Source: Verrucomicrobiales bacterium (GTDB lineage Bacteria; Verrucomicrobiota; Verrucomicrobiia; Verrucomicrobiales; DEV007). From it: 15,742 bases of DNA. A program made the translations under genes and the position numbers. The notes beneath the pieces are model-generated. The model searched no databases. It saw nothing but the letters and a program-made list of their open reading frames with translations, and was not told the origin of the DNA. This document shows positions 4,781 through 14,978 of this stretch, piece after piece; the stretch's first letter is position 1; each line of letters starts with the position of its first letter. The stretch is taken from NCBI GenBank assembly GCA_007123695.1, contig SLGN01000509.1, forward strand, positions 1 to 15,742, given 5' to 3'.

Positions 4781-7150
4781 ATGTCCAAGGTGTCCCCCGT
4801 CTCGCGCCTTTGCCTCCTCTCTCTGCCCCTGCTCATCACCGGGGCGGCGGGACCGTCGCGAGGCGACGAAAAGGCCGACCTCGCCTTCTTCGAGTCGAAG
4901 ATCCGGCCCGCCTTGGTCAAGCATTGCTACGAGTGCCATTCGGAGGACGCCAAGAAGCTCGGCGGCAAGCTGCGGCTCGACACCAAGGAGGAGACGCTGC
5001 GGGGCGGCGAATCGGGCGCGGCCCTCGTCGCGGGCAAGCCGGAGGAGTCGCTGCTGCTCTTCGCCCTGAAATGGGAGGACGGCCTGGAAATGCCGCCGAA
5101 GGAGCCGCTGCCCGAGTCCGTTGTCGCCGACTTCGAAAAATGGATTGCGATGGGCGCGCCGGACCCGCGCTCCGGCCCGCCCGTGCCGGTGGCCCCGCCG
5201 GAGGAAACGAGGACGTCGCACTGGTCATTCCAGCCGGTGGAAAAACCCGAGCTGCCGACGGTCCGCGACGCAGAATGGCCGCGCTCGGACATCGACCGCT
5301 TTCTCCTCGCCAGGATTGAGGAGGCCGGGCTCGCGCCGACCGCCGACGCCCCGCCCGAGCGGCTCGTGCGCCGGCTCCACTTCGACCTAACGGGGTTGGG
5401 TCCCTCGTACGACAGGGTTGGGTCCTTCGTCGCCGACCATGCCGCACGTGGGGACGAGGCCGTCGCCGATCTCGTCGACGAGCTGCTCGCCTCGCCCCAT
5501 TTCGGCGAGCGCTGGGGACGGCACTGGCTCGACGTGGCCCGATACGGCGAGTCGAACGGAAACGACGGGCTCAGCCGCAACCCGACTTTTCCCCACGCCT
5601 GGCGCTACCGCGACTACGTCATCGACGCCTTCAACGCGGACCTCCCCTTCGACGTCTTCGTCAGGGAGCAGGTCGCGGGCGACCTGATGGCATCCGCCGA
5701 CGCGGCCGAGCGCGACCGGCGCCTCGTCGCGACCGGTTTCCTCGCGCTGGGGGCGAAGCCGGCCAAGGCGATGAACGAGAACTTCGACATGGACGTGGTC
5801 GACGACCAGATCGCGGTGGTCGGCTCGGGGCTGCTCGGCCTCAGCGTGGCCTGCGCCCGCTGCCACGACCACAAGCACGACCCCATCCCGACGCGCGACT
5901 ACTACGCCCTCGCCGGCATCTTCCAGAGCACCGAGACGATGTGGGGGCTCGCCGCAAACGAGGGCCTCACCGCCCCGGCCACGGACCTGCACGTGCTGGC
6001 GACGGCGCCGAGGGTGCCGCCTCCGGCGGGCTTCGTCGAGACGGTTTCGCCGATCCAGTCGAATACCGGAAAGCCCAAGCCGATTCCGAAGCCGAAGTGG
6101 GAACCGGGCACGCCGCTGGCCATGGGCGTGCGCGACCGGCCTGCGCCGGAGGACGCGCGCATCAACCTCAAGGGCGAGTCGAAGAAGCTCGGCGACCGCG
6201 TTCCCCGGGGTTTCCTCACCGCCTGCGCCATGCCGGGGGAGAAGCTCGTCGAGCGGAAATCGGAGAGCGGCCGCCTCGAGCTGGCGGAGTGGATCGCGCG
6301 CCCCGACCACCCCCTCACTGCGCGGGTCTTCGTGAACCGGGTCTGGCGGCATCTCTTCGGCGAGGGCCTCGTGGCCACGCCCGACGACTTCGGCGTCTAC
6401 GGAGAACGTCCCTCGCATCCCGAGCTGCTCGACCATCTCGCGGCCCGCTTCGTCGGCGAACTGGGCTGGTCGACGAAGGCGCTGGTGCACGAGCTGGTCC
6501 TGAGCCGCGCCTACCGCCTCGACAGCGCCGCCGACGCCCGCCTCGCCGAAGCCGATCCCGACAACCGTCTCCACGCCCGCCATTCCCGCCGCCGCCTCGA
6601 GGCCGAGGCCATCCGCGACCGCCTCCTCCAGGCCAGCGGCGAGCTCGACCCGACCCGGCCCGAGGGATCGATCATCCGCCATCGCGACATCATGGTGCAG
6701 CTCGCGGGGAGCCTGCACGAGCCGAGCCGCCATCGCAGCGTCTACCTCTGCTACCTGCGCAACTCGCCCCCGCCCGAGCTGGCCCCCTTCGACCTGCCCG
6801 ACGCCCTCGCCACGCAAGGCAAGCGCGAGACCACGGCCCTGCCCGCGCAGTCGCTCTTCTTCCTCAACAGCCCCTTCGTGGTCGAACAGTCGCGGATCCT
6901 CGCGCGCCGCCTCCTCGCCTCTCCCGGATCCGCCGAAGACGGGGAGAAAGAGATCGCCGCCGCCGCAATCCGCCAGGTCTTTTCCCGCGACCCGCTCGGG
7001 GGCGAGGCCGACCGCATCGCCGCGCTCGCGCGGGACGCGGACGCGGCCTTGCGCGGGGAACAGCCCGACGCGACCCTGCGGCGTGAGATGGCCTGGGCAG
7101 CCGCCTGCCAGGGCCTGCTGGCGACCAACGAGTTCCGCTACCTCGACTGA
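4781..7150 (+). CDS. PSCyt1 / DUF1549 / DUF1553 (PSD1) planctomycete-type cytochrome c protein
   Basis: A 789-residue exported protein. Residues 1-28 form a signal peptide. A PSCyt1 cytochrome c-like region follows, with haem motif C49-Y-E-C52-H53. The DUF1549 (PSCyt2) region spans about 145-385; it includes [18 protein letters not shown] and a second haem-type motif, C358-A-R-C361-H362, in [11 protein letters not shown]. The DUF1553 (PSD1) region begins near residue 498 ([19 protein letters not shown]) and includes NRVWRHLFG at 519-527. The order is canonical for these multidomain proteins, which are greatly expanded in Planctomycetota and Verrucomicrobiota and usually paired with DUF1501 genes or sulfatases. 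An electron-transfer role in periplasmic polysaccharide breakdown is proposed for the family, but no reaction is established. The DUF1501 gene follows after 36 bp. The frame includes a short stretch of atypical codons at residues 203-224 (listed separately). The start is set by the signal peptide; no Shine-Dalgarno is present. Confidence 0.93.
5393..5430 (+). repeat. Short imperfect tandem repeat with central palindrome inside the DUF1549 coding region
   Basis: The 11-mer GGGTTGGGTCC occurs at 5393-5403 and again at 5415-5425. The match extends to 15 of 16 bases (5393-5408 against 5415-5430), a period of 22 bp. The perfect palindrome TCGTACGA (5405-5412) lies between the copies. The segment is read in frame as [13 protein letters not shown]. 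Codon choice changes here: CTA, TTG, GGT, AGG and GTT appear in a gene that otherwise uses CTC, GGC, CGC and GTC. It may be one copy of a dispersed genomic repeat; that part is inference. Confidence 0.6.
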
Positions 7151-7186
7151 ACGAACCCGACCGACCCACCCGCCACCCGATCCGCC

Positions 7187-8533
7187 ATGCAGCCGCCCCT
7201 TTCCCGCCGCCGCCTCCTCCGCTCCGCCTCCTGCGGCTTCGGCTACCTCGCCCTTTCGGCGCTTTGTCAGGAACGCGCCCTCGCCTCCTCCGCGCTCGTC
7301 CCGAAAGTGGCCCGCCATCCGGCCCGGGCCAAGCGCGTCGTCTTTCTCTGCATGAGCGGCGGCCCCGCGCAGCTCGACACCTTCGACTACAAGCCGCAGA
7401 CGGGGAGCAAGCCGCATCCCGGCTCGGTCTTCGGCTTCTCGCAGCATGGAGAGAGCGGGCTCTGGATCTCGGAGCTGCTGCCCGAGACCGCGAAGCACGC
7501 CGACAAGCTCTGCGTCCTCAACGGAATGCACGCCGACACCGGCAACCATGCCCAGAGCTTCCACCAGCTCCACACCGGCGACCGCCTCCGCCAGCGGCCC
7601 AGCCTCGGATCCTGGATCAGCTACGGCCTCGGCACGGAGAACCACAGCCTGCCCGGCTTCGTCAGCCTCAATACGTCGAAGCCGCAGGTCTACTCCAGCG
7701 CCTTTCTCCCCAGCGTCCATCAGGGCACCCCGGTGGGGGTCAACGGCGAGGACATGTCGGCGGCGACAATCCCCAACATCTCCGGGGGACATCTCCCCGC
7801 CTCGCTCCAGCGCCGCCAGCTCGACCTCGTCCAGGCGATGAACCGCGAGCACCAGTCCCTGCGGGCCGGGGACGCCGCGCTCGAGTCGGTCATCGAGTCG
7901 ATGGAGCTCGGCTTCCGCATGCAGTCCGAAGCCCCCGGCCTGCTCGACACCAGCAGCGAGCCGGCCGAGGTGCTGGAGCGATACCGCGTCGGACGCAGCG
8001 TCAGGGAGGGCACCTGCAAGCCGTCGGACTTCGGGCGGCAATGTCTCCTCGCACGCCGCCTCCTCGAGGCCGGGGTGCGCTTGGTCGAGCTCAACCACGG
8101 AAGCTGGGACCAGCACAAGAATCACCGCCGCGACCTGCGGGCCAACTGCGAGGCGACCGACGCGCCCATCGCTGCTCTGCTCGAGGATCTCGACCAGCGC
8201 GGCATGCTGGAGGACACCCTCGTGGTCTGGGGCGGCGAGTTCGGGCGTCCGGGCCTCGTCCCCGACGACGGCAAGGACGAGACCGGCCACAACGCCAACG
8301 GCTTCACCTTCTGGCTCGCCGGAGGCGGGGTGAAGGGCGGGCACGTCCATGGCAGGACCGACGACACCGGCGCCCGAGCCGTCGAGGGAAAGGTCCACTT
8401 CCGCGACCTCCACGCGACCATCCTCCACCTCCTCGGCCTCGAGCCCGACGCCCTCACCTACCAGCACGAAGGCCGCCCCCACCGGCTCATCGGGCCCGAA
8501 GGTGGCCGGGTGGCGCAAGAGATCTTCGCCTAA
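7187..8533 (+). CDS. DUF1501 family Tat-exported protein (sulfatase-like fold)
   Basis: 448 residues. The N-terminus has a twin-arginine motif, SRRRLL at 6-11, then a hydrophobic stretch to about residue 26, so export through the Tat pathway is expected. The DUF1501 core begins with [18 protein letters not shown] (53-70). It continues through [27 protein letters not shown] (348-354) and [14 protein letters not shown] (376-389), and ends in the characteristic [19 protein letters not shown]. Length and motif order are normal for the family. DUF1501 is related to the alkaline phosphatase/sulfatase superfamily. Its members almost always sit directly after a DUF1549/DUF1553 gene, as here with a 36-bp gap, and the two are presumably co-transcribed. 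Activity is not established. After WGGEFGR the usual TP is replaced by PG followed by a charged loop (DDGKDETG). The ATG at 7187 is the only start that keeps the Tat signal near the N-terminus; there is no Shine-Dalgarno. Confidence 0.93.
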
Positions 8534-14510: not shown

Positions 14511-14978
14511 ATGAAGACCAAGGAACCGGAAAACGAAGAATCCGCGAACAAATACGGACCCACCTACGCCATCTACAAGCCCAACAGCCGGGGCAGCGGC
14601 GGGGTCGTCCGCTTCGAATGGAACCGCGAGAAATCGTGCGTCTTCGTGGATGCCGCGCGGCAGTCGGGAGACAAGCAATTCGACTGGGAGACCAAGATCA
14701 CCATGAAATGGGCTCTTTCCGACCTCGGCGACGTCCTCGCCACCCTGCAGGGCCGCCAGTCGCAGACCAAGCTATTCCACCGTTCCGAGCGGGCCAACAG
14801 CGCCTTCGAGCTCACTTACCAAACCGACCCCGACCGGGCTCCCTACCTCCTCACCATCTCGCGCCAGGAACAGGAGGACAAAAGCCTCCGCAAGGTGAGC
14901 ATACCCGTGTCGCACGCCGAAGCCGCCATTCTCGAAACGGCTGCCCGGACGGCGATCGGGCGGATGCTCGGGTGGTGA
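14511..14978 (+). CDS. Whirly-like single-stranded-DNA-binding protein (putative)
   Basis: 155 residues, no signal peptide, so cytosolic. Three blocks line up in order with the plant Whirly domain as I know it. YAIYK (19-23) fits the opening SIYKGKAAL strand. KQFDWETK (55-62) then ALSDLGDVLATL (68-79) fits YDWEKKQ-FALS-TEVG-LL. Near the end, IPVSHAEAAILETA (131-144) then GRMLGW (150-155) fits VPVTKAEFAVL-TA then PHIMGW. LFHR (88-91) fits the EFFHDP position. Plant Whirly proteins bind single-stranded DNA or RNA as tetramers and act in organelle DNA repair and transcription. A nucleic-acid-binding role here is inferred from these motifs. The first 14 residues are charged and probably disordered. 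The gene lies 143 bp after the exporter operon on the same strand and converges on the HAD gene 18 bp away. There is no Shine-Dalgarno. The alternative is an uncharacterised verrucomicrobial protein with chance similarity. Confidence 0.8.
   Translation: MKTKEPENEESANKYGPTYAIYKPNSRGSGGVVRFEWNREKSCVFVDAARQSGDKQFDWETKITMKWALSDLGDVLATLQGRQSQTKLFHRSERANSAFELTYQTDPDRAPYLLTISRQEQEDKSLRKVSIPVSHAEAAILETAARTAIGRMLGW

Follow-up and report, generated by a model that had tools for sequence, protein, structure and literature searches.

The 155-amino-acid protein encoded at 14511..14978 on the plus strand of contig SLGN01000509.1 (assembly GCA_007123695.1, a Verrucomicrobiales bacterium) is a bacterial Whirly-fold protein of the PF08536 domain family. 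The 15,742 nucleotides of this contig constitute the stretch of DNA analysed here (the window); the gene starts with ATG and ends with TGA, which is included in the coordinates. Plant Whirly proteins guard chloroplast and mitochondrial DNA. An earlier note on this DNA had described a 155-residue protein carrying the motifs of the plant proteins in the same order and ending on GRMLGW, and all of these were present in the open reading frame (ORF), with GRMLGW directly at the stop codon. We consider that the protein probably serves as an accessory single-stranded DNA (ssDNA)-binding protein of non-OB-fold type in repair and recombination, beside the ordinary single-strand-binding protein (SSB) and RecA.

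Family membership was examined through sequence and profile searches. A search with the Whirly profile, a check named beforehand, gave a significant match between the window protein and PF08536 (E 4.3e-9; 36.8 bits, with a curated cut-off of 23). When the protein was compared with the Protein Data Bank (PDB) by phmmer, the top six of 10 matches were plant Whirlies, StWhy2 being the best (1.6e-5). A database of 5.8 billion proteins was also searched at a threshold of E <= 0.001, at which 884 of 938 candidates were retained as relatives; the best 120 of the 884 were listed, and 48 diverse members of that list were assembled into the profile A1. The sole PDB matches of A1 were six plant Whirly sequences (best 1.5e-8), and PF08536 was matched by 48/48 of its members at E <= 1 (best 6.6e-12). 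Moreover, alignment of A1 with four plant Whirlies by hhalign yielded a probability of 97.6 and a score of 77.8, compared with maxima of 3.9 and 21.5 in 60 column shuffles (one value a repeat) and with 0.2 for a reversed alignment. The likeness thus lies beyond chance, as had been claimed. Neither MRP chains nor PUR proteins appeared among the PDB matches of the phmmer and A1 searches, and the window protein did not match the OB-fold SSB family PF00436 in a Pfam search at E <= 10.

Conservation was concentrated in a limited number of positions. Across the best 120 relatives listed, 58 columns were at least 97% identical, among them 12 basic and 8 aromatic residues, and the median pI of 183 of the collected proteins was 9.33. 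The opening YAIYK strand singled out previously was found, but its description required correction, in that the strand runs on into a loop, YKPN-x-RG-x-GG, that is near-invariant in the 120 relatives and replaces the KGKAAL of higher plants. In the window protein, the first strand, this loop and the second strand span residues 19-35 (14565..14615, plus strand; YAIYKPNSRGSGGVVRF; column counts from the 120 relatives). The pattern YKPN..G.GG occurred in 180 of 184 collected proteins (the plasmid protein P0184 being one of the 184); the loop was assigned to the place of KGKAAL by chain order, not residue alignment. The DWE-K block common to plant Whirlies lies in KQFDWETK (residues 55-62, 14673..14696, plus strand), in which F57 and W59 were invariant and D58 almost invariant among the 48 members of A1. 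It is followed on the same strand by LFHR (residues 88-91, 14772..14783), with the FH common to plants, by IPVSHAEAAIL (residues 131-141, 14901..14933), which covers the end of the last strand and the start of the C-terminal helix, and by GRMLGW (residues 150-155, 14958..14975), which aligns to the plant GW and whose C-terminal tryptophan was found in 120/120 listed relatives.

The fold prediction that had been suggested for this protein was also carried out, and gave a Whirly-type fold. The model predicts four strands, a helix, four strands and a helix, forming two four-stranded sheets and two helices, and its best matches among solved structures were Whirlies and trypanosome MRP1/2. Structure alignments with plant Whirlies corresponded to 18-23% identity, and PUR domain proteins (PURA, Borrelia Bpur), which gave no sequence match, scored well below Whirly and MRP. 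Together with the PF08536 match, the predicted fold supports the view of the protein as a deep homologue of the Whirly fold; neither of the two outcomes that the earlier note had named as refuting it was observed. Because the first predicted strand starts at residue 18 of 155, the protein has no long N-terminal extension; an organelle-targeting extension was not seen, as judged by secondary structure with no targeting predictor run.

Evidence bearing on function came from the gene setting of relatives. In a deeper branch of bacterial proteins, which share about 23-35% identity with the window protein, the predicted fold was the same, and plant Whirlies ranked above MRP among its matches. An OB-fold SSB gene lay directly upstream, on the same strand, at 22 of the 34 contig loci of this branch and, in a second set obtained by a genome search, at 18 of 24 loci across 10 families (the two sets share some genomes). 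The two genes were often separated by about 10-90 nt, with a one-base overlap in some cases and, less often, gaps reaching about 500 nt, and Pfam confirmed SSB (PF00436) in both paired upstream genes tested. Two or three SSB genes were present in each of 15 checked genomes with the SSB-Whirly pair; four checked genomes of the deeper group without the pair had 1, 1, 1 and 0. Four SSB-less loci (L136, L137, L138 and L140) had a MutS gene upstream, which was confirmed by Pfam on L138 (three of the four loci carry RUG names, probably denoting a rumen source), and another had an Mg-chelatase of the ComM/YifB kind in this position (ComM being our reading).

A regulatory site was found closer to the window, in its own order. 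For this analysis 41 loci of the close group were used, drawn from the window and from a selection of 40 among the 60 genomes of the order that had a match; together they represent 13 genera. The pattern TGTTC-N4-GAACA, which we take to be the LexA motif of Verrucomicrobia, was fixed before inspection as one of seven patterns; that it is LexA-type is indicated by its presence at lexA and recA in these genomes. In family f2, an exact site was located within 90 nt upstream of the Whirly start at 14 of 16 loci; of the remaining two, one had two one-mismatch sites and one had none. A single further exact site was found in the 580,820 bases of the 41 loci, 373 nt upstream of the Whirly gene at one locus. 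Of the five exact sites in genome G561, four were at lexA, recA, a Y-family polymerase gene and the Whirly gene, and the fifth preceded a dnaG ORF by 264 nt. Genome G307 had eight; recA, lexA and also the Whirly gene were each marked by one, three had no assigned gene, another preceded an ORF that is dnaE2-like by eye (cut at 73 aa, in which form Pfam gave no match), and another lay beside a SRAP gene, past its end.

Given that relatives' genes adjoin SSB or MutS genes or carry the LexA-type box, a role in DNA maintenance is favoured, and the ssDNA handling proposed in the earlier note gains support from the same settings. By analogy, the protein would bind ssDNA without strong sequence preference and would act as a small oligomer, presumably a tetramer as in plant work; exposed single strands would thereby be covered, and so protected from degradation and from annealing at short chance repeats. 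Its job would probably be like that of OB-fold SSB, its gene partner at most deeper-branch loci and a member of a different family.

Several observations weigh against this interpretation. The weakest step is that the window's own copy acts as its relatives may do: its gene lacks both the SSB neighbour and the LexA-type box, and at about 23-35% identity function is transferred from the deeper branch by inference. Even in that branch the SSB neighbour was absent at 12 of 34 loci, of which one ends 282 nt upstream of the gene, and at 4/4 viral-collection loci. Neighbours of the close-group gene, considered over 3 kb, were shared by at most 2 of the 13 genera (41 loci); in family f3, flanking genes recurred in two genera. 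The exact box was found at 0/7 loci of f1 (the window's included), 0/17 of f3 and 0/1 of f83, with a one-mismatch site at one f1 locus other than the window's. The regulator as such is present in both f1 and f3: the core GTTC-N4-GAAC preceded lexA in 4/5 f1 genomes (not G404) and in 4/5 f3 genomes (not G234; one of two copies in G449). The core preceded recA in 4/4 f3 genomes and in 0/5 f1 genomes, the window's included. The order therefore makes use of the motif, but f2 is the one family in which the Whirly gene carries it. A search of the window genome, which is about 80% complete, gave no lexA. Finally, KGKAAL, the ssDNA-binding motif of higher plants, was present in 0/184 collected proteins, which keeps the window protein out of the higher-plant WHIRLY subgroup. 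In PMC9070903 this motif is reported to be necessary for ssDNA binding and for the assembly of tetramers into larger spheres; green-algal and Marchantia WHIRLY-like proteins are likewise described there as lacking it while keeping the fold, a likeness drawn by description only. The RNA binders MRP1/2, moreover, almost equalled plant Whirlies in fold match.

As an alternative to the accessory ssDNA-binding role, the protein could act chiefly in transcription control, by opening or binding promoter elements in single-stranded form, as has been suggested for potato p24/PBF-2 and Borrelia Bpur. The Pfam title of the family is transcription factor, plant p24 is termed a transcriptional regulator, and PMC3764826 describes the modulation of transcription by a bacterial protein whose PUR domain has a related fold. 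However, the neighbours in the deeper branch are SSB and MutS genes, and in f2 it is the Whirly gene itself that carries the LexA-type box; we regard a mainly regulatory role as unlikely. It also seems rather improbable that the protein binds or anneals RNA in the manner of trypanosome MRP1/MRP2 (PF09387), despite the closeness of fold. Sequence profiles retrieved Whirly and not MRP: PF09387 gave no match for the window protein in the Pfam search, and among the 48 A1 members one match at 0.077, with no significant sequence match overall. In addition, plant Whirlies outrank MRP in the deeper branch, and both the SSB pairing and the LexA-type box indicate DNA.

Relatives were also sought on viral and plasmid sequences, in view of a third explanation, namely that the gene is a plasmid or phage accessory captured by chromosomes and serving element replication rather than host repair. 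Deeper-branch Whirly-like genes were present on four IMG/VR contigs of 55-252 kb (L064-L067). On L065 the neighbours were a MutS domain I ORF, a sub-threshold RecT and a DUF2800/PD-(D/E)XK ORF; since this contig also carries an IF-1-like gene (by eye), it may represent a piece of host DNA. Searches with the close group gave no match among IMG/VR contigs or phage records, and among plasmids only a single distant one (31%, E 8e-3). From that match a distant family was reached in 188 of 72,556 plasmid records, the listed organisms being Proteobacteria. These plasmid-borne Whirly-like proteins (L068:5431-6504 and L204-L213) have a GGKAAL-type motif: the 11 aligned members show HVYGGKAAL-like residues followed by R-x-Y-[ND]-W-x-x-K, with exact GGKAAL in 2/11 and the looser G-x-[KR]-A-A in 8/11. 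When their profile was compared with the PDB, plant Whirlies came first (p24, 3.5e-5), and hhalign aligned the GGKAAL region with plant KGKAAL at a probability of 88.1. We regard this putative further Whirly branch as a lead from sequence comparison. Around the 11 loci, replication initiators were noted at 2, helicases or dnaB at 4, exonucleases at 1 and transfer genes at 2. Although such neighbours, the viral-collection contigs and a patchy distribution in the order would suit a mobile trait, the near absence of the close group from these elements, the SSB pairing over 10 families and the LexA-type box suggest host use, and we judge capture from a mobile element to be very unlikely.

In the window's order, a match was carried by 60 of 288 genomes in a patchy distribution. 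The window genome, an assembly of 759 contigs, contains one Whirly gene, and one canonical SSB gene on a different contig. Among close-group genomes, 7/8 had one SSB gene and 1/8 had two, the second one weak. That the gene stems from plant or algal DNA binned with a fragmented, incomplete bacterial assembly is scarcely conceivable, in light of close relatives in those 60 genomes, including the single-contig assembly G561, and of the missing targeting extension.

The relation to plants was addressed with an unrooted maximum-likelihood tree of 49 rows, in which the plant, plasmid and deeper groups each lay behind a supported branch, while the close group was unresolved around the joint. The plant-to-bacteria branch was 2.58 changes per column in length. 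Plant Whirlies may be of bacterial descent, as the earlier note had suggested among its readings. A broader proposal is put forward tentatively, as one that may well prove wrong: prokaryotes would possess an ancient class of single-strand binders with the Whirly fold, distinct from OB-fold SSB and comprising at least three branches, and plant organelle Whirlies, perhaps also trypanosome MRPs, would have descended by transfer from bacteria or plasmids. The first branch would be that of the window's order, SOS-controlled in one family. In the second, that of Kiritimatiellae/Lentisphaerae-type bacteria, the gene would accompany a second SSB, and large viral-collection contigs would carry relatives of it. 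The third would be carried by Proteobacteria plasmids, with the GGKAAL-like motif and, in some, adjoining replication genes.

Two reviews place Whirlies in plants and some algae; one calls them plant-specific, and the other repeats a report that a cyanobacterium has no Whirly homologue. A limited literature search found nothing relevant on bacterial Whirly or on Whirly in Verrucomicrobia. Automated annotation has already named a few relatives 'Whirly transcription factor'; because this Pfam label is in place, what is new is the extent and setting of the branch, not the label. A family described as plant-specific thus appears to have a bacterial branch. It differs from the plant proteins (StWhy2, AtWHY1/2/3, StWhy1/p24) in its YKPN..G.GG loop, in lacking a targeting extension, and in the LexA-type box or SSB pairing of some relatives. 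Being tied in relatives to SSB and to this box, the branch would give a simple test bed for the family; it bears on the source of the plant organelle Whirlies, and it suggests that repair in some bacteria draws on a second single-strand binder that is not of the OB-fold type.

Additional features were recorded near the SSB-Whirly pairs. In 9 of 22 pairs (L109-L142) the SSB start was preceded, at a distance of about 100 nt, by GGAA[AT]-N8-18-[CG][GCA]TTTC[CT]TT; this element had exactly 9 plus-strand occurrences in the 454,520 bases of 38 loci, a count to be read with the fact that the pattern was composed after inspecting the same SSB-upstream sequences. This promoter-like element could be a promoter for a specialised sigma factor. 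Two conserved ORFs occurred near the pair at 15 and 14 loci, for example at L113:6146-7177 and 5164-6210 on the minus strand; the pair of this type that was tested had no Pfam match, and the first ORF is faintly sigma-factor-like by eye. L142:4504-4992, on a contig labelled Phycisphaerales, encodes a highly divergent relative with no Pfam match.

With regard to the box, the window genome has one exact TGTTC-N4-GAACA site, near an ORF that is transporter-like by eye. In G433, of the window's genus, 15 exact sites were counted, compared with 1 for the reversed control and with 1-8 in four other genomes; one of the 15 adjoins its lexA match. Elsewhere in the window, 4781-8533 presumably encodes, as judged by eye, a large cytochrome-like protein and, after it, a DUF1501-like one; this combination is common in planctomycete and verrucomicrobial genomes.
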